Below, piece by piece: positions 42,406 through 49,179 of a stretch of DNA of 64,000 nucleotides. Position 1 is the stretch's first letter, and each line of letters starts with the position of its first letter. The position numbers and the translations under genes are program-made. The notes under the pieces were generated by a model. That model worked only from the letters and a program-made list of their open reading frames with translations. It did not search any database and was not told the origin of the DNA. The DNA lies in the NCBI RefSeq assembly GCF_902498785.1, contig NZ_LR701493.1:107359-171358 (forward strand), written 5' to 3'. Origin of the DNA: Sphingomonas sp. EC-HK361 (GTDB lineage: Bacteria; Pseudomonadota; Alphaproteobacteria; Sphingomonadales; Sphingomonadaceae).

Positions 42406-43287
42406 ATGGCTTATTTTCTCGGAATCGACGCGGGCGGTAGCCATTGTCGCAGTCGGTTGATCGACGCAGCGGGCGGGGTCATCGGCACAGGTCAGACCGG
42501 ACCCGCGAATGCGCGGATCGGGATGGACAAGCTCTATGCGACGCTGGGCGACGCGATCGGGCAGGCGGTCGATGCGGCAGGGCTCGAGGGCGCACAAATT
42601 GCCACGATCCGCGCCGGGATGGGGATTGCGGGGATATCGCGGCCGGGCGTCCGTGATGCGCTGACACAACTCGATTTCCCCTTTGCCGCCATTCGCTACG
42701 AAACCGATGCGGTGATCGCGAACCTTGGCGCGCATGGCGGGCAGGACGGTGCGACGCTCATCATCGGCACCGGCAGCATCGCGCAGGTGCGGTTCGAGGG
42801 GAAGGATTTCAGCATCGGTGGCTACGGCTTTCCGATTTCCGACGAAGGCAGCGGCGCGGCACTGGGGCTGAGCGCGATGCGCCATGCGCTGCGGGCGCTC
42901 GACGGGCGGACGCAGCCGACGCCCTTAAGCAGCGCGGTCACCGCGCGGTTCGGACACGAAACGGCTCGGGCGATCGCGTGGATGGATCAGGCGACGCCGC
43001 GTGACTATGCCGCGCTCGCGCCCGTCGTCATGGATTACGCCGAGGCGAACGACGCGATCGCGCGATCGATCGTCGAGGACGCGGCGCAACATATCGAGCG
43101 CTTCATCGAGACGATCTTCGAACGCGGGGCGCCTCGCTGCGCGCTCGCGGGCGGGCTGTCGGAACGGATGCTGCCGTGGCTTCGCGCGCGCACCGTGTCG
43201 CGGCTGACGCCGGCGATCGGCGATCCACTCGACGGGGCGCTGTATCTCGCCGGCTACCGCGCGGGGCTGGTTTCGGCCGCGGCCTGA
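42406..43287 (+). CDS. BadF/BadG/BcrA-family amino-sugar kinase (candidate GlcNAc/MurNAc kinase)
   Basis: A 293-residue ASKHA-fold kinase: phosphate-1 motif FLGIDAGGSHCRSRLID, then LIIGTGSIAQV, FPISDEGSGAALGLSA and the adenosine motif CALAGGLSERML. The family includes N-acetylglucosamine kinases, glucosamine kinase GspK and the clostridial MurK, which phosphorylates both MurNAc and GlcNAc. ATG 42406 is preceded by CTGGAGACG; ATG 42388 is an alternative. It converges on nagA, overlapping it by 34 bp, and belongs functionally to the nagA-nagB-murQ region. With MurQ present and no anmK, MurNAc kinase activity is a reasonable inference. Confidence 0.83.
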   Translation: MAYFLGIDAGGSHCRSRLIDAAGGVIGTGQTGPANARIGMDKLYATLGDAIGQAVDAAGLEGAQIATIRAGMGIAGISRPGVRDALTQLDFPFAAIRYETDAVIANLGAHGGQDGATLIIGTGSIAQVRFEGKDFSIGGYGFPISDEGSGAALGLSAMRHALRALDGRTQPTPLSSAVTARFGHETARAIAWMDQATPRDYAALAPVVMDYAEANDAIARSIVEDAAQHIERFIETIFERGAPRCALAGGLSERMLPWLRARTVSRLTPAIGDPLDGALYLAGYRAGLVSAAA

Positions 43288-44441
43288 CCGGCCTCAGCGC
43301 CTTCGGATAACGCCCCGCCAATCCAGGTCCGCGTGACCGCCATCGCGTCGTTCAGATGGACGATATCGGCGGCGAGGCCGGGCGCGAGCGTGCCGGTGCG
43401 ATCCGCAATTCTCAGGAAACGCGCCGGATTGCCGCTCGCCATCGCTGATGCGGTGACGAGATCGACGCCCAGCATCTCCACGGCATTGCGCACCGCCTGT
43501 GCCATCGAGAGCGCGGAGCCAGCCAGCGTGCCGTCGGCAGACTGGCACACGCCGTCCTTCACCGTGATCTCGCGCCCCATGAGCGTGAAGCGCGTGGCGT
43601 CGGTGCCGACCGGCGACATCGCGTCGGTGACGAGCATCGCACCGCCCGGCCCGCGCGCGGCCAGCGCAACGCGAAGGCTGGCTGGTGCAACGTGATGGCC
43701 ATCGACGATGAGCCCGAAGAAGCTGGCGCGGTCCTCCAGCGCGGCGCCGACCATCCCCGGCTCGCGGCTGCCCAACTGCGTCATCGCGTTGAAAAGGTGG
43801 GTGAAGCCCGACAATCCCTCGTCCAGCGCCTCGCGGGTTGCCGCGTAGCCGGCCATGCTGTGCCCGGCAGCCACCACGACGCCCGCGGCGCGAAGCGCGC
43901 GGATCGTGCCCGGCGCAGCGAGTTCGGGCGCGAGGGTCACCAGCCGCACCCCGCGACCGGGGCGGGTCAGGAACGCTATCGCGGCATCGTCCAGCAGGCG
44001 GAACTTGCCCGGATCGTGGATGCCGCGCTTGTCGGCGTTGAGGAACGGCCCTTCGATATGGATGCCGAGAATACCCGGAACGCCGGCGGCAATGGCCGTG
44101 TCGACCGCATCGATCGCGCGTTCGATCGCCGCCAGATCGTCGCTGATGAGCGTCGGCATCATCCCCGTCGTTCCGAAACGCCGGTGCGCGGCCATGATCG
44201 TGCGCAAGCCATCGACATCGGGCGCGTCGTTGAACAGCACGCCGCCACCGCCATTGACCTGCGTGTCGATGAAGCCGGGCAGCAGGAAACCGCCGTGCAG
44301 ATCGATGCGCAGGGCATCTGGCGGGCAGGCGTCGGACGCACACAGCCCCGCGATCCGTCCTCCATCGATCAGCAGCGCGGTTCCGGGCAGGATAGCGGCG
44401 GGCGTCACCACCTGCGCGCCGCAAAGAGCGGTCAGCGTCAT
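43254..44441 (-). CDS. nagA: N-acetylglucosamine-6-phosphate deacetylase
   Basis: It converts GlcNAc-6-P to GlcN-6-P and acetate. The 395-residue amidohydrolase has the metal and substrate blocks GFIDTQVNGGGGVLFND, GILGIHIEGPFLN (metal-binding Glu), AAGHSMAGY, THLFNAMTQLGSREPG and LVTDAMSPVGTD, which carries the catalytic Asp. ATG 44441 overlaps the stop of the upstream deaminase gene (ATGA), so the two are translationally coupled. The 3' end overlaps the convergent kinase gene. Confidence 0.94.
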   Translation of the reverse strand: MTLTALCGAQVVTPAAILPGTALLIDGGRIAGLCASDACPPDALRIDLHGGFLLPGFIDTQVNGGGGVLFNDAPDVDGLRTIMAAHRRFGTTGMMPTLISDDLAAIERAIDAVDTAIAAGVPGILGIHIEGPFLNADKRGIHDPGKFRLLDDAAIAFLTRPGRGVRLVTLAPELAAPGTIRALRAAGVVVAAGHSMAGYAATREALDEGLSGFTHLFNAMTQLGSREPGMVGAALEDRASFFGLIVDGHHVAPASLRVALAARGPGGAMLVTDAMSPVGTDATRFTLMGREITVKDGVCQSADGTLAGSALSMAQAVRNAVEMLGVDLVTASAMASGNPARFLRIADRTGTLAPGLAADIVHLNDAMAVTRTWIGGALSEGAEAGQAAAETSPAR

Positions 44442-45475
44442 AGGGTGCTGGTGACCTTGGAAAGATAGGGAGGGTGGTCGGGGTCGCGCCCGCGCGCGCG
44501 GGCGACGCCTTCGGCCAGGCGGTAGAAACTCGCGACCTGCCCGATCGCGCCGATGACGGGATGGGCGTGGGCGACGATCGGCAGGCGGATCGCAGCGCCC
44601 TCGGTGTCCGCCGCGTCGCCCGCGGCGATGACGAACGCGCCGCGCTCTTTAAAGGCACGGATGCGCGCGGCTGTGCCCTCGCGGGCGGCGTCTTCTGGGC
44701 AGAAGAGGAAGACGGGATCGCCTTCGTTGATGAGCGTCATCGGGCCGTGTGCGACTTCGGCGATGCTGAACGCTTCGGCATGGATCGCGGCGGTTTCCTT
44801 CAGTTTAAGCGCTGCTTCCCCCGCGATCGGCAGGGTCAGCCCGCGGCCGAGGACGAGCAGCGACTGCGCATCGGAGAGGACCGGGAGCGCGGCCGACCAG
44901 TCGAGCGCGAACGACGCCGCGAGCGCATCGCCGACGCTGTCCAGCGCCTGGTCGAGAATCGCGTCTCCGCCCCAAATTGCGGCGATCTGCGCGAGTGCGG
45001 TCAGGGTCGCGATGAAGCTTTTCGTCGCGGCGACGCTGCGTTCTGGGCCGGCGCCGAGCGGGATGACGTGATCGGCAAGTGCTGCGAGCGGGGATGCGGT
45101 GTCGTTGACGATCGCGACGACGATGGCGCCGACGCGCTTTGCGTCGGCGGCGGCGGTCAGAAGATCGGGGCTGCGGCCGGATTGCGAGAGTGCAAGCAGG
45201 GGAACGCGGGCGAATTTGGGGGATGTGACGCCGTAGAGCGAGCCGGTCGAAGGGGCGTGGCTGACGACCGGAAGGCCTAGACGTGTTTCGAACAAGACCT
45301 TTGCAAAGCTGGCGGCGTGATCCGAACTGCCGCGCGCGAGGGTTGCGATGAAGGGCGGATCGAGCGCCTTCAACGCCGCAACAATGCGCATGATTTCGTC
45401 GCGATTTGACGCGATTTGGCGCGATGCGATCGCTGCAGCCTCGCGTGCTTCGCTCAACATGAGGCTTTCGGGCAT
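44438..45475 (-). CDS. SIS-domain glucosamine-6-phosphate deaminase (NagB-II type)
   Basis: It probably isomerises and deaminates GlcN-6-P to fructose-6-P, replacing classical NagB. The 345-residue protein has two SIS domains but lacks the GlmS glutaminase domain: FIATLARGSSDHAASFAKVLFE, LALSQSGRSPDLL, and later LGRGLTLPIAGEAALKLKETAAIHAEAFS. This layout matches NagB-II of Shewanella and other proteobacterial GlcNAc operons; AgaS-type deaminases are close relatives. ATG 45475. It heads the nagB-nagA operon and diverges from the D-lactate dehydrogenase gene, with a candidate regulator site in the 67-bp gap. Confidence 0.88.
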   Translation of the reverse strand: MPESLMLSEAREAAAIASRQIASNRDEIMRIVAALKALDPPFIATLARGSSDHAASFAKVLFETRLGLPVVSHAPSTGSLYGVTSPKFARVPLLALSQSGRSPDLLTAAADAKRVGAIVVAIVNDTASPLAALADHVIPLGAGPERSVAATKSFIATLTALAQIAAIWGGDAILDQALDSVGDALAASFALDWSAALPVLSDAQSLLVLGRGLTLPIAGEAALKLKETAAIHAEAFSIAEVAHGPMTLINEGDPVFLFCPEDAAREGTAARIRAFKERGAFVIAAGDAADTEGAAIRLPIVAHAHPVIGAIGQVASFYRLAEGVARARGRDPDHPPYLSKVTSTL

Positions 45476-45500
45476 TGATCAACCTGATAATTGGACTGCG

Positions 45501-45517
45501 AGTGGTATTAGACTGGT
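45501..45517. promoter_or_regulatory. Candidate NagR/GntR operator between nagB-II and the dehydrogenase gene
   Basis: AGTGGTATTAGACTGGT lies in the 67-bp divergent promoter region, 26 bp from the deaminase start and 26 bp from the dehydrogenase start. It resembles HutC-subfamily GntR operators of the TGGTCTAGACCA type but is an imperfect dyad. The regulator encoded at 47833-48597 is of this subfamily. The region is AT-richer than its surroundings, consistent with promoters for both directions. Confidence 0.45.
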
Positions 45518-45542
45518 TGCGCGCTGCGCGCCAGTGCGTCAA

Positions 45543-46925
45543 ATGTGCGGCATGGACGGACTCGCATCGTTGACGGCCGCGATCGGCGCCGATTTCGGCG
45601 ACCGGTGGATCACCGCCCCGGGTGCGCTCGCGCAGTATCGCCCGCTCGAGGGGCCGCACCCTGCCGACGCGCCCGGCATCGTCGTCCAGCCGCTGACGAT
45701 CATCGAGGTGCAGCGGATCGTCGCCGCAGCGCACGCCGCCGCGATCCCGATCGTGCCGTGGGGCGTGGGGACGTCGCTGGAGGGCAACGCAGCGGTCGGG
45801 GCGGGGGCGTTGTGCGTCGATCTGTCTCGCATGAATCGCATCGTGGAGATCGCGGACGCCGATCTGCTGTGCGTGGTCGAGCCGGGGGTGACGCGGGAGC
45901 AGTTGAACGAGGACCTGCGCTCGACGGGGTTGTTCTTCCCGATCGATCCCGGCGCCAATGCGACGCTGGGCGGGATGATCGCGACGCGGGCGAGCGGGAC
46001 GAACGCGGTGCGTTACGGCACGATGCGGGAGAACGTGCTGGCGCTGCAGGTCGTGCTGCCCGACGGGCGGCTGATCCGCACCGGCACGCGGGCGCGCAAA
46101 TCGGCGGCGGGCTATGATCTGACGCATCTGTTCACCGGGTCCGAAGGGACGCTGGGGCTGATCGTCGAAGCGACGCTTCGGCTCCACGGCATTCCCGAGA
46201 CGGTGCTGTCGGGGACATGGCCGTTCACGACGCTGGCGGGGGCGGTCGATACCGTGATCGCGGCGGTGCAAGCGGGCATTCCCGTCGCGCGGATCGAGTT
46301 GCTCGACGAGGCGGCGATCCGGGCGTGCAATACGCATGGCGGGCTGGACCTGCCGGAGCAGCCGATGCTGTTCGTCGAGCTTCACGGCAGCCCGGCTTCG
46401 GTCGCCGAGCAGCGGGCGATGCTCGCTGCGATCGGCGAGGAGCTTGGCGGGGGCACCCTCGCGCTCAGCACCGACCGGGACGAGCAGCGTCGGTTGTGGC
46501 GGGCGCGGCATCAGGCGCTGCCGGCGGCGCGCGCGATGCTGCCCGGCGCGGTGACGTGGATCAGCGATATCTGCGTGCCGATCTCGAAGCTGGCCGAAGC
46601 GATCGGGCGTGCGCAGGCGGCGATCGCGGCGGCGGGGCTGCTCGCGCCGATCCTGGGGCATGTCGGCGACGGCAACTTCCACGTCTTCTTCGTGCTGCAC
46701 CCCGACGACCGCGATGCATGGGCGCGCGCCGCCAAGGTCAACGCCGCGATGATCGATTTCGCGCTGTCGGTCGGCGGCACGTGCACGGGCGAGCACGGCA
46801 TCGGCATCGGCAAGCGTGAGGCTTTGGTGCGCGAGCACGGCGCCGATGCGGTCGCGGTGATGCGCGACATCAAACGCGCGATCGACCCGATGGGGCTGAT
46901 GAACCCGTCCAAAATCTTTCTTTGA
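45543..46925 (+). CDS. FAD-linked D-lactate dehydrogenase / glycolate oxidase-type oxidase
   Basis: A 460-residue flavoprotein of the GlcD/D-LDH family. The N-terminal FAD-binding domain has VVQPLTIIEVQRIVAAAHA, VPWGVGTSLEGNA and GANATLGGMIATRASGTNAVRYG; the C-terminal domain has ARHQALPAA, GHVGDGNFHVFF and GGTCTGEHGIGIGKREAL. Starts at ATG 45543 or ATG 45552 are both possible; no clear ribosome-binding site decides. Its position directly before murQ suggests that it oxidises the D-lactate that MurQ releases from MurNAc-6-P, delivering electrons to quinone. Glycolate oxidation remains an alternative. Confidence 0.87.
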   Translation: MCGMDGLASLTAAIGADFGDRWITAPGALAQYRPLEGPHPADAPGIVVQPLTIIEVQRIVAAAHAAAIPIVPWGVGTSLEGNAAVGAGALCVDLSRMNRIVEIADADLLCVVEPGVTREQLNEDLRSTGLFFPIDPGANATLGGMIATRASGTNAVRYGTMRENVLALQVVLPDGRLIRTGTRARKSAAGYDLTHLFTGSEGTLGLIVEATLRLHGIPETVLSGTWPFTTLAGAVDTVIAAVQAGIPVARIELLDEAAIRACNTHGGLDLPEQPMLFVELHGSPASVAEQRAMLAAIGEELGGGTLALSTDRDEQRRLWRARHQALPAARAMLPGAVTWISDICVPISKLAEAIGRAQAAIAAAGLLAPILGHVGDGNFHVFFVLHPDDRDAWARAAKVNAAMIDFALSVGGTCTGEHGIGIGKREALVREHGADAVAVMRDIKRAIDPMGLMNPSKIFL

Positions 46926-46949
46926 CCCGCCAGCGACGCAAGGAAACGC

Positions 46950-47840
46950 ATGTCCACCGAAACCGTCGATCCCCGCTTCGTCGATCTCGATCGCTGGCCG
47001 ACCGCGCTCGCGGTCGAGGCGATGCTGGAGGGGCAACTGGCCGCGGTCGCCGCGATCAAGAGCCAGACGGGCGCCATCGCCGCGGCGTGCGATGCGGCCG
47101 CGCCCCGTCTGCTGCGCGGCGGGAGGCTCGTCTACGCGGGTGCGGGCACATCGGGGCGGATCGCGGTGCAGGACGGGGTTGAGCTGTATCCCACCTATAA
47201 CTGGCCGCGCGACCGGCTGGTCTTCCTGCTCGCCGGCGGCACCGATGCGCTGGCCGAAAGCGCGGAAGGCGCGGAGGACGATGCGGACGCCGCGCGCGCG
47301 GGCGTAGTGGCGGAGGGCGTCGGCGCGGACGATATCGTCATCGGTGTGGCGGCAAGCGGGCGCACGCCGTTCACCGTCGCGGTGGTCGAGGCGGCGCGCG
47401 GGGCGGGAGCATTGACCATCGGTGTCGCGAACAATCCGGACAGCGTGCTGCTCGCGGCGGCAGATCATGCGATCGTCGCCGATACAGGGAGCGAGCCGGT
47501 CGCGGGATCGACGCGGATGAAGGCGGGGACGGCGCAGAAGGTCGTGCTGAACCTGCTGTCCACCGCGCTGATGCTGCGTTGCGGGCTCGTCTACCGTGGG
47601 CTCATGGTCAACATGCGCGTGTCGAACGACAAGCTGGCCCACCGCGCGACCGCGATCGTGTGCCAGACCGCGCAGGTCGGGGAAGCGGCGGCCAATGCGG
47701 CGCTGAGCGCGGCGGATCAGGATATCAAGCTGGCGGTGCTGCTGGCGAAGGGCTGGCAGGCGGATGTGGCGCGCGCGGCGCTGGCGCGGCACCACAACAA
47801 TCTGCGCGCCGCGCTGGAGGCGGGGGACCGCCATGCGTGA
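46950..47840 (+). CDS. murQ: N-acetylmuramic acid 6-phosphate etherase
   Basis: MurQ cleaves the lactyl ether of MurNAc-6-P to give GlcNAc-6-P and D-lactate. The 296-residue SIS-domain lyase shows LVYAGAGTSGRIAVQDGVEL (catalytic Glu about 78), AEGAEDDAD, IVIGVAASGRTPFTVAV, GSEPVAGSTRMKAGTAQK and NMRVSNDKLAHRA. These match MurQ rather than other SIS sugar isomerases. ATG 46950 follows AAGGAAACGC. It lies 24 bp after the dehydrogenase and overlaps the regulator gene by 8 nt, so all three are probably one transcript. Confidence 0.94.
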   Translation: MSTETVDPRFVDLDRWPTALAVEAMLEGQLAAVAAIKSQTGAIAAACDAAAPRLLRGGRLVYAGAGTSGRIAVQDGVELYPTYNWPRDRLVFLLAGGTDALAESAEGAEDDADAARAGVVAEGVGADDIVIGVAASGRTPFTVAVVEAARGAGALTIGVANNPDSVLLAAADHAIVADTGSEPVAGSTRMKAGTAQKVVLNLLSTALMLRCGLVYRGLMVNMRVSNDKLAHRATAIVCQTAQVGEAAANAALSAADQDIKLAVLLAKGWQADVARAALARHHNNLRAALEAGDRHA

Positions 47841-48597
47841 GGCGCTTGCGGCGCGCGGGGGCAGCGATACGCCGCTCTACCTCCAGCTTGCGCGGTCGCT
47901 GCGCGAGCATGTCGCGGACGGCGGGGTCGCGGCCGGCGGTGCGCTGCCGTCCGAACGCGACCTGGCCGAGATGTCGGGCATGTCGCGCGTCACCGTGCGC
48001 AAGGCGATCGAGGCGCTGATCCAGGAGGGCATCCTGTATCGCAAGCAGGGATCGGGCACGTTCGTCGCGCGGCGGATCGACCACGCCGGCGCCGCGCTCA
48101 TCAGCTTTACCGCCGAGGCGTGCGCGCGGGGCGAGCGGCCGTCGGTCATCTGGATCATGCGCCGCCGCGGCACCGCGACCTATGCCGAGGCGATGGAACT
48201 GCACATGCCCGAGGACACACCGGTCGCGCGGCTGAGCCGGGTGCGGCTGACCAATGACGAGCCGCTGGCGATCGAGCATGCGGTGGTGCCGGCGGCGCTG
48301 CTGCCCGATCTCGATACGCTGGGCGATTCGCTCTACGCGGCGCTGGCGGAGGCGGGCACCCGGCCGGTTTCTGGCACGCAGCGAATCCGCGCGTGCCTGG
48401 CGACGCCGACCGAGGCGGGCATCCTGTCGATCGCGGAGAATGCGGCGATCCTGCGTATCGAGCGCGTGGCCTTCGACGCGCAGGGCCGTGCGGTGGAATT
48501 CACCCGGTCGGCCTATCGGGGCGACCGGTTCGATTTTGTCACCGATCTGTCGCGGTCGACGGTGCAGGCGAAGGATGGGGTGGGGTTCGAGGTGTGA
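47833..48597 (+). CDS. GntR-family (HutC/NagR subfamily) transcriptional regulator
   Basis: A 254-residue repressor. The N-terminal winged helix ([46 protein letters not shown]) is followed by a UTRA ligand domain ([48 protein letters not shown]). UTRA-type GntR proteins respond to sugar phosphates such as GlcNAc-6-P or GlcN-6-P. ATG 47833 lies within the end of murQ. Its neighbourhood and the candidate operator at 45501-45517 suggest that it controls the amino-sugar genes on both strands. Confidence 0.9.
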
Positions 48598-48622: not shown

Positions 48623-48757
48623 CAACCCACCCCCGACCCCTCCCTTGTCAGGGAGGGGAGTTAGAAGGGCGCTGTCCCTTTTCGGGAAGGGACGATAGAG
48701 AGACGGCCTCGTCTTTTTCCTCCCCTCCCTGACAAGGGAGGGGTCGGGGGTGGGTTG
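48623..48757. repeat. 38-bp inverted repeat downstream of the GntR gene
   Basis: The segment 48623-48660 and its exact complement at 48720-48757 each contain CCCCTCCCTTGTCAGGGAGG plus a CAACCCACCCCCGA flank; the 59-bp spacer shows no gene. A third, slightly diverged copy is at 49134-49172, on the far side of the next gene. Confidence 0.9.
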
Positions 48758-48789: not shown

Positions 48790-49179
48790 ATGCCCCGCCT
48801 GCCGCCCAAGATCACGTCCCATGCCCGGGACCTTCGCAACAAATCGACGCCGGAGGAGCGCTCCATCTGGCACCTCGTGCGCCACCACCGTCCCCGCTTT
48901 ACTCGACAACTTCCCGTCGGTCCCTACATCTTGGACCTAGCGTGTCGTTCACGTCGTGTCGCAATCGAGCTCGACGGAAGCCAGCATCTCAACTCCGCAG
49001 ATTACGACAGGGCTCGGACGGCTTTCTTGACCGACTTGGGCTGGACGGTGCTACGATTCTGGAACAGCGACGTCCGCGCCAATCCCCATGGGGTGGCGGA
49101 GGCGATACTGGCTGCCGTTGGAGAAGACATCGGGCCAACCCACCCCCGGCCCCTCCCTTCCAGGGAGGGGAGCAAATAG
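48790..49179 (+). CDS. DUF559 endonuclease-like protein whose tail is repeat-encoded
   Basis: A 129-residue protein of the DUF559/Vsr-like PD-(D/E)XK superfamily: ARDLRNKSTPEERSIWHLVR, FTRQLPVGPYILDLACRSRRVAIELDGSQH and LTDLGWTVLRFWNSDVR, which give the D-x-n-E-x-D-G-x-Q-H nuclease core. The last 14 residues (GPTHPRPLPSREGSK region) are read from a palindromic repeat at 49134-49172. DUF559 genes are small mobile-looking cargo in many genomes; this one sits between repeats at both ends. ATG 48790. No methylase partner is near. Confidence 0.82.
   Translation: MPRLPPKITSHARDLRNKSTPEERSIWHLVRHHRPRFTRQLPVGPYILDLACRSRRVAIELDGSQHLNSADYDRARTAFLTDLGWTVLRFWNSDVRANPHGVAEAILAAVGEDIGPTHPRPLPSREGSK
49134..49172. 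repeat. Palindromic repeat overlapping the DUF559 3' end
   Basis: CCAACCCACCCCCGGCCCCT followed by CCCTTCCAGGGAGGGGAG, the same type as 48623-48660, with a few substitutions. The DUF559 stop codon lies just beyond it. Confidence 0.85.

Follow-up and report, generated by a model that had tools for sequence, protein, structure and literature searches.

By what route could a sphingomonad bring N-acetylmuramic acid (MurNAc) from peptidoglycan into its central metabolism, and what becomes of the D-lactate released on the way? The question is raised by a locus at positions 42406-48597 of a 64-kb stretch of DNA (64,000 nucleotides; hereafter, the window) from contig NZ_LR701493.1 of Sphingomonas sp. 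EC-HK361. An initial annotation, made from the letters of the DNA, had placed six genes here, coding for a BadF/BadG-family kinase, NagA, a SIS-type deaminase, an FAD-linked dehydrogenase, MurQ and a GntR-type regulator. All six open reading frames (ORFs) are open at the positions it gave, Pfam and NCBIfam models confirm the families, and the pathway that it read from the gene set fits the families assigned.

The locus is probably a catabolic module for the amino sugars of peptidoglycan, the oxidation of lactate included. The BadF-family kinase would phosphorylate free MurNAc, and probably N-acetylglucosamine (GlcNAc) too, at C6. MurQ would convert MurNAc 6-phosphate (MurNAc-6-P) to GlcNAc-6-P and D-lactate, NagA and NagB-II would carry GlcNAc-6-P on to fructose 6-phosphate, and an LDHD-type flavoenzyme would oxidize D-lactate to pyruvate. 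A GntR/UTRA protein, probably sensing a sugar phosphate of the pathway, would act as repressor of two divergent operons, nagBA and dehydrogenase-murQ-gntR, by way of an operator that lies in the gap. This proposal builds on what was observed of the genes present, their layout, the conservation of active-site residues, the structure of the clades and the phyletic co-occurrence; from these we infer the substrates, the order of steps, the regulation, the electron acceptor and the absence of AnmK from this organism. We also lean, a little more cautiously, towards a broader reading in which a BadF kinase for GlcNAc and MurNAc gives sphingomonads and relatives a further entry to MurNAc catabolism among Proteobacteria, in place of AnmK as well as of the MurP phosphotransferase system (PTS), a murQ-specific LDHD clade burns the D-lactate, and some Sphingomonas add look-alikes of D-glutamate salvage genes, so that all D-parts of the muropeptide would be used.

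The kinase and its tie to MurQ

The probable MurNAc/GlcNAc 6-kinase (42406..43287, + strand; PF01869, 9e-29) was followed through an even sample of 367 genomes of one sphingomonad family, that of G006, a Sphingomonas whose genome holds the murQ locus L007. A smaller sample of 149 genomes was searched for MurQ, the kinase, AnmK and NagB-II. Furthermore, murQ loci were compared, namely the best 80 of 236 from named genomes, which represent the nearest relatives and are no frequency sample. The cut-offs were E<=1e-30 for the kinase, E<=1e-110 for the dehydrogenase and E<=1e-55 for NagB-II. In the larger searches six candidates per genome (four for the dehydrogenase) were fully scored, so that misses are possible.

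MurQ occurs in 27 of the 367 genomes and the kinase in 28, among them all 27 with MurQ (hypergeometric 5e-40). The sole kinase genome without MurQ, G391, has a copy of 39% identity adjoining nagB and nagA; the copy of G010 reaches only 36%. Similarly, kinase and MurQ occupy the same 14 of the 149 genomes in the smaller sample. NagB-II, found in 23 of these 149 and in 11 of the 14 with MurQ, tracks MurQ less well than the kinase does. Since kinase and MurQ are both missing from 12 of the 23 NagB-II genomes, the kinase follows MurQ and not the use of GlcNAc.

This distribution bears on the first alternative, namely that the gene codes for an ordinary NagK, a GlcNAc kinase handling the GlcNAc half only, with an AnmK encoded elsewhere feeding MurQ. 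Its best sequence matches are indeed GlcNAc kinases. AnmK is present in 49 of the 149 genomes (8 of the 14 with MurQ) and in 14 of the 27 MurQ genomes of the larger sample, and a protein of the AnmK cluster stands in 45 of the 80 murQ loci. The other 13 of the 27, however, have the kinase without AnmK, and EIIB of the PTS was found in none of the seven of these that were tested (G202, G273, G292, G309, G329 and G382 lay outside the test). Together with the 12 NagB-II genomes devoid of kinase and MurQ, these genomes make the NagK explanation doubtful. Among 29 chosen MurQ genomes, EIIB is present in G001, G003 and G018. Twelve of the 14 AnmK-less genomes in that set are without EIIB and thus have neither system; the kinase was seen in 11 of the 12, and G011 was examined at its locus only.

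The kinase lies within 2.5 kb of murQ in 13/13 AnmK-less genomes vs. 3/14 AnmK-bearing ones (Fisher 3e-5; the limit was chosen afterwards), and at 5 kb the figures are 13/13 vs. 5/14 (6e-4). The gene order of the window, kinase, nagA, nagB, murQ with the kinase facing nagA, recurs in G016, G087, G093, G309, G329 and G382, all AnmK-less, and no gntR was found in the fetched stretches of these six. The place of gntR after murQ is shared with the AnmK-bearing G024, G362 and G397, a point in favor of the NagK explanation; in these three the kinase is either co-directional with nagA or points away from it. Because the resemblance is mixed, the layout gives evidence in both directions. On the kinase tree the row nearest to the window is G016, which has no AnmK, followed by G024, G397 and G362. 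A search of this tree for a kinase clade confined to AnmK-less genomes found none: AnmK status changes on it at least 5-6 times, and the positions of three long rows (G391, G010, G257) are unsure. The prediction that the genome of the window lacks AnmK is only moderately strong.

Several points weigh against our proposal and should be kept in view. The kinase also occurs in the 14 AnmK-bearing MurQ genomes, where it could serve GlcNAc alone. A kinship-aware test of AnmK against adjacency has 2-5 independent pairs and is not significant, and the hypergeometric and Fisher values ignore kinship. In the window the kinase stands 3.7 kb from murQ, beyond the 2.5-kb limit, with the dehydrogenase intervening; the gap is about 2.3 kb when the dehydrogenase is left out. 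Absences may be assembly gaps, as the completeness of the genomes is not stated (G309 has 1.9 Mb), and three counted matches contain an in-frame stop (the kinase of G093 and G362, the MurQ of G292). The sequence of the kinase itself adds to this list, for its nearest solved relative is a probable GlcNAc kinase, 1zc6 (113.6 bits).

The best NCBIfam model for the kinase is NagK_SO3507, at 245.7 bits, under the curated equivalog cut-off of 370. The MurNAc/GlcNAc kinase 8zo3, which we take by its name to be MurK of Clostridium acetobutylicum, matches at 58 bits. 8oqw ('ATPase') and 8ow9 ('putative novel MurNAc kinase'), presumably the Tannerella forsythia kinases, reach only 20 bits. For T. forsythia MurK, the part of PMC10465942 consulted gives Thr94, which precedes the catalytic Asp, and small residues at 133-135 as required for activity on MurNAc. 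The ETD motif and GGYG of the window kinase fit this enzyme; those of 1zc6 (TD, GGWG) do so equally, and in 8zo3 Asn, not Thr, precedes the catalytic Asp. The sequence is nearer to GlcNAc kinases than to 8zo3, which makes dual specificity more probable than a strict MurK. The suggestion in the initial annotation that this is the MurNAc kinase thus survives in part: co-occurrence with MurQ argues for a source of MurNAc-6-P, and the kinship to GlcNAc kinases makes a strict MurK less likely. A dual-specificity MurNAc/GlcNAc kinase, like Clostridium MurK, would fit the facts best. The tracking of MurQ by the kinase, taken with the absences of AnmK and EIIB from part of the MurQ genomes, makes a non-AnmK, non-PTS route for MurNAc likely.

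A second kind of BadF-family kinase was noticed on the way. In the Rhizobiales-type loci viewed it stands directly after murQ (L070:7416-8324, L034:10927), and its cluster is represented in 23 of the 80 loci, as is a cluster of PfkB kinases.

The dehydrogenase and the fate of D-lactate

The gene directly before murQ (ATG at 45543 or 45552, to 46925, + strand; PF01565 and PF02913) codes for a putative FAD/Mn D-lactate (D-2-hydroxyacid) dehydrogenase; as read from the DNA, 24 bp separate its stop from the murQ start. Its best solved match is mouse LDHD 8jdc, with 433 bits over nearly the full length, vs. 232 bits for glycolate oxidase and 146 bits for D-2-hydroxyglutarate dehydrogenase. The latter two identities were set aside on these lower scores and on the pocket residues. 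The domain models place the enzyme in the GlcD/LDHD group; among those of NCBIfam, TIGR00387 (GlcD) scores highest, with 311 bits against a cut-off of 568. The metal and substrate residues given for mouse LDHD are Arg347, His398, His405, Glu442 and His443 (PMC10589216, in part). All five have their equivalents in the alignment of the window enzyme and are conserved in 39/39 aligned dehydrogenases. Val101, Trp351, Ser365 and Ile407 form the hydrophobic pocket of the mouse enzyme, and Leu, Leu, Ile and Phe take these four positions in the window enzyme. Where the mouse enzyme has Trp351, Leu is found in 11/11 murQ-linked rows, the window included, and Tyr in 27 of the 28 unlinked rows, the remaining one having Ala. 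The enzyme appears to be of LDHD type, and oxidation of D-lactate is predicted.

The link to murQ was seen in two ways. First, 10 of the 80 murQ loci carry a close dehydrogenase homologue within 10 kb of murQ (L002, L007, L026, L010, L012, L013, L027, L051, L054 and L018, the last one cut by the locus end). Kinase, dehydrogenase and murQ stand in a row in L002, L007 and L026, and in L010, L012, L013, L027 and L051 the dehydrogenase is divergent from nagB. The genomes of 50 of the 80 loci yielded ten matches at 61-73% identity in murQ loci and twelve at 49-56% outside; G020 and G029 have both a linked and an unlinked copy. Second, in the 367 genomes the dehydrogenase was found at 42 places in 41 genomes. 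The three places with at least 64% identity (G006, G010, G273) all lie within 3.4 kb of murQ. The remaining 39, at 44-59% identity, all lie apart from murQ, and this holds also for three that are in the MurQ genomes G016, G104 and G292. In a tree of 39 sequences the window enzyme and ten murQ-linked copies form one clade (100/99), and the 28 unlinked copies are all outside. G273 shares with the window the divergent arrangement of nagB and dehydrogenase, yet has murQ on the far side of the kinase; the link therefore survives rearrangement.

Could the enzyme serve another D-2-hydroxyacid, its place beside murQ being due to shared regulation or chance? In favor of such a role, LDHD enzymes accept many hydrophobic D-2-hydroxyacids, several in the case of the mouse enzyme (PMC10589216, as far as the excerpt goes), which tells against a dedicated lactate function. 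Leu in place of Trp or Tyr at one pocket site of the linked clade could widen the pocket, and 24 of the 27 MurQ genomes, again to the detriment of our proposal, have no close copy of the dehydrogenase. Nevertheless, all the close homologues found are in murQ loci, in several gene orders; D-lactate, the product of MurQ, is the type substrate of LDHD; and the hydrophobic pocket disfavors charged substrates such as D-2-hydroxyglutarate. A different substrate is hence improbable. Chance neighborhood was rejected on the ground that close copies are confined to murQ loci and form a single clade.

The idea that the D-lactate enzyme is part of such clusters, put forward in the initial annotation, is upheld by this clade and by the closest homologues, which adjoin murQ in 3/3 genomes of the larger sample. 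The survey of co-occurrence that it had recommended gives a divided answer: the close copies are all beside murQ, but only 3 of the 27 MurQ genomes have one. The association of the dehydrogenase with murQ is real and specific, but shared by a minority only.

What becomes of the D-lactate released by MurQ is usually left to general metabolism. MurQ of E. coli is named as a source of D-lactate with no gene linked to it in the text examined (PMC3022706, in part). Lactate builds up when engineered C. glutamicum grows on MurNAc (PMC6165865, excerpt); therefore, a murQ-linked dehydrogenase would help. We found no paper that places a lactate dehydrogenase in a murQ cluster, and no account of MurNAc use in sphingomonads, in the open-licence literature, mostly titles and the starts of abstracts. 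If the present reading is true, the murQ-specific clade means that the use of lactate is wired into the pathway in some bacteria.

Scavenging, recycling and regulation

The steps around MurQ are occupied as follows. MurQ (46950..47840, + strand) exceeds the cut-offs of PRK05441 (332.5 bits, cut-off 168) and PRK12570 (272.6, cut-off 255), falls under that of TIGR00274 (253.6, cut-off 302) and matches the solved 4lzj at 196.8 bits. In an alignment with solved MurQ and HI0754 the Glu residues of the GAGTSGR...E and EGAED motifs, which we take to be catalytic, are present. NagA (43254..44441, − strand) exceeds the TIGR00221 cut-off, with 283.5 bits vs. 225.65. For the SIS protein (44438..45475, − strand) the best model is NagB-II SO3506 (NF046059), but the score of 283 bits is below the curated equivalog cut-off of 430. 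A solved glucosamine-6-phosphate (GlcN-6-P) deaminase, 8eol, is its third-best structure match, with 214 bits. Judging from this model and this match, the protein probably works like NagB-II.

Such a set could also recycle the cell's own wall instead of scavenging that of others, with GlcN-6-P going to biosynthesis and lactate oxidation being housekeeping. Consistent with this, no uptake gene was found in the window; the kinase-dehydrogenase-murQ rows L002, L007 and L026 hold no nagA or nagB-II; and a genome-wide search of G006, to which L007 belongs, gave no NagB-II at the cut-off. The window itself, however, carries the catabolic NagB-II, divergent from the dehydrogenase, and among the 80 related loci a TonB receptor and a sodium symporter are each present in 33. 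Recycling as the main purpose is therefore rather unlikely. The missing transporter still counts against a scavenging module. The window gave no tblastn match at E<=1e-5 to 14 proteins from the neighborhoods of relatives (one AnmK was included; a PTS protein was not). For this reason 'complete', as the initial annotation had called the salvage module, is too strong a word.

The larger surroundings of murQ in relatives were recorded as well. The common sphingomonad murQ cluster has a TonB receptor, a sodium:solute symporter, AnmK and a PF07555 N-acetylglucosaminidase (e.g., L030:5581-8355, L040:8434-10011, L028:32-1111), none of which was found in the window by tblastn. In six loci (L002, L006, L007, L008, L022, L026) a larger cluster, situated about 1-10 kb before murQ, adjoins the kinase-murQ unit and codes for an MFS permease (AmpG-like by eye), a beta-lactamase-family protein, an S13 carboxypeptidase, an enolase-superfamily protein, a LysR regulator and a dicarboxylate symporter, families assigned by a scan of one representative per protein cluster. 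L006, L008 and L022 also have a DUF1611 protein. We take the DUF1611 and enolase-superfamily proteins to be the D-glutamate salvage genes DgcN/DgcA; the literature listing ties DgcN alone to D-glutamate. The larger cluster is apparently devoted to whole-muropeptide salvage. A PP2C-like gene (PF13672) stands beside nagB in 19 of the 80 murQ loci by clustering (e.g., L028:3438-4307). L015, L023 and L055, from records named Myxococcota, Arthrobacter and Bacillus, are sphingomonad-like murQ loci (62-63% identity) and perhaps come from mislabelled or contaminated assemblies.

Dehydrogenase, murQ and gntR (47833..48597) are tightly packed on the + strand, with the gntR start overlapping the murQ stop. 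The regulator is of the GntR/UTRA (HutC-type, NagQ-like) kind (PF00392 and PF07702), and its protein cluster is represented in 59 of the 80 murQ loci, in many directly after murQ. Kinase and nagA converge and share 34 bp at their 3' ends. From a spacer of about 67-76 bp, nagB and the dehydrogenase gene are read in opposite directions, and this promoter region holds the candidate operator TGGTATTAGACTGGTTG (45503..45519, + strand), a tandem of TGGTATT and TGGTTG 11 bp apart. The match at 45503 is the only one in the window. Counted over 1.6 Mb (the 80 loci together with 23 kb of the window), the tandem pattern occurs 24 times, with 0.4 expected from base shuffles, and 22 of the 24 stand close before cluster genes; the pattern was drawn by eye partly from the same loci, and its enrichment is partly circular. 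It was found zero times in 27 further loci (212 kb), four of which have the regulator. The promoters of two of these four, L128 and L129, show single TAATACCA sites, and those of the other two, L133 and L140, lay outside the inspection. Single TGGTATNA sites on either strand precede TonB-dependent receptor genes in 16/26 cases, AnmK in 5/10, NagB-II in 4/12, MurQ in 7/26, the kinase in 1/6 and the dehydrogenase in 1/2, vs. 14/269 non-core and 6/92 other core genes. NagQ sites are described as tandem repeats (PMC5343134, in part). Control of the candidate operator by the GntR regulator is suggestive only.

Outside the cluster, NCBIfam models place serC and serA upstream. Just after gntR a long inverted repeat around CTCCCTGACAAGGGAG was seen by eye (~48623-48661 / 48720-48757), and beside it a small ORF (48790-49179) looks to us like a DUF559 protein.

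Comparison with known systems

With its near-perfect tie to MurQ, the kinase allows a route free of AnmK and PTS to be tested concretely, and the closest precedents of that route should be set beside it. In E. coli the route runs through AnmK/MurP, MurQ, NagA and NagB. The MurQ and NagA steps and the release of D-lactate are common to both (PMC6165865, excerpt), whereas the window has a BadF kinase in place of AnmK/MurP, a lactate enzyme in the cluster, and NagB-II. Caulobacter crescentus is without MurQ and uses the MurU route (PMC13046382, in part). The Shewanella-type NagK/NagB-II pathway for GlcNAc supplies the best NCBIfam models for the window kinase and SIS deaminase; unlike that pathway, the window scores under the curated cut-offs, and MurQ and the dehydrogenase are joined here. 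NagQ regulons of Proteobacteria, alphaproteobacteria included, have a GntR regulator over nag genes and tandem-repeat sites (PMC5343134, in part), to which the regulator and candidate operator of the window would correspond; they differ in that the word murQ is absent from the main text of that study. Mammalian LDHD shares all five catalytic residues with the window enzyme and differs at four pocket residues.

For the kinase, the best functional analogue is 8zo3. It belongs to the BadF family too, although the bit score of 58 is far from the 113.6 of 1zc6 and Asn precedes its catalytic Asp. Clostridium MurK acts on both MurNAc and GlcNAc, and in Tannerella forsythia the murTKQ operon combines a BadF-family MurNAc kinase with MurQ, PTS-type transporters being missing (PMC5790795, as excerpted). 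The window likewise has a BadF-family kinase with MurQ; in contrast, the Tannerella operon has its transporter inside, and the excerpt mentions no lactate dehydrogenase. In general, the enzyme families of the module are all known, and a BadF kinase with MurQ in the absence of a PTS is known from Tannerella. The pathway is thus a known one, of which the sphingomonad locus would be a variant with a predicted kinase substrate.

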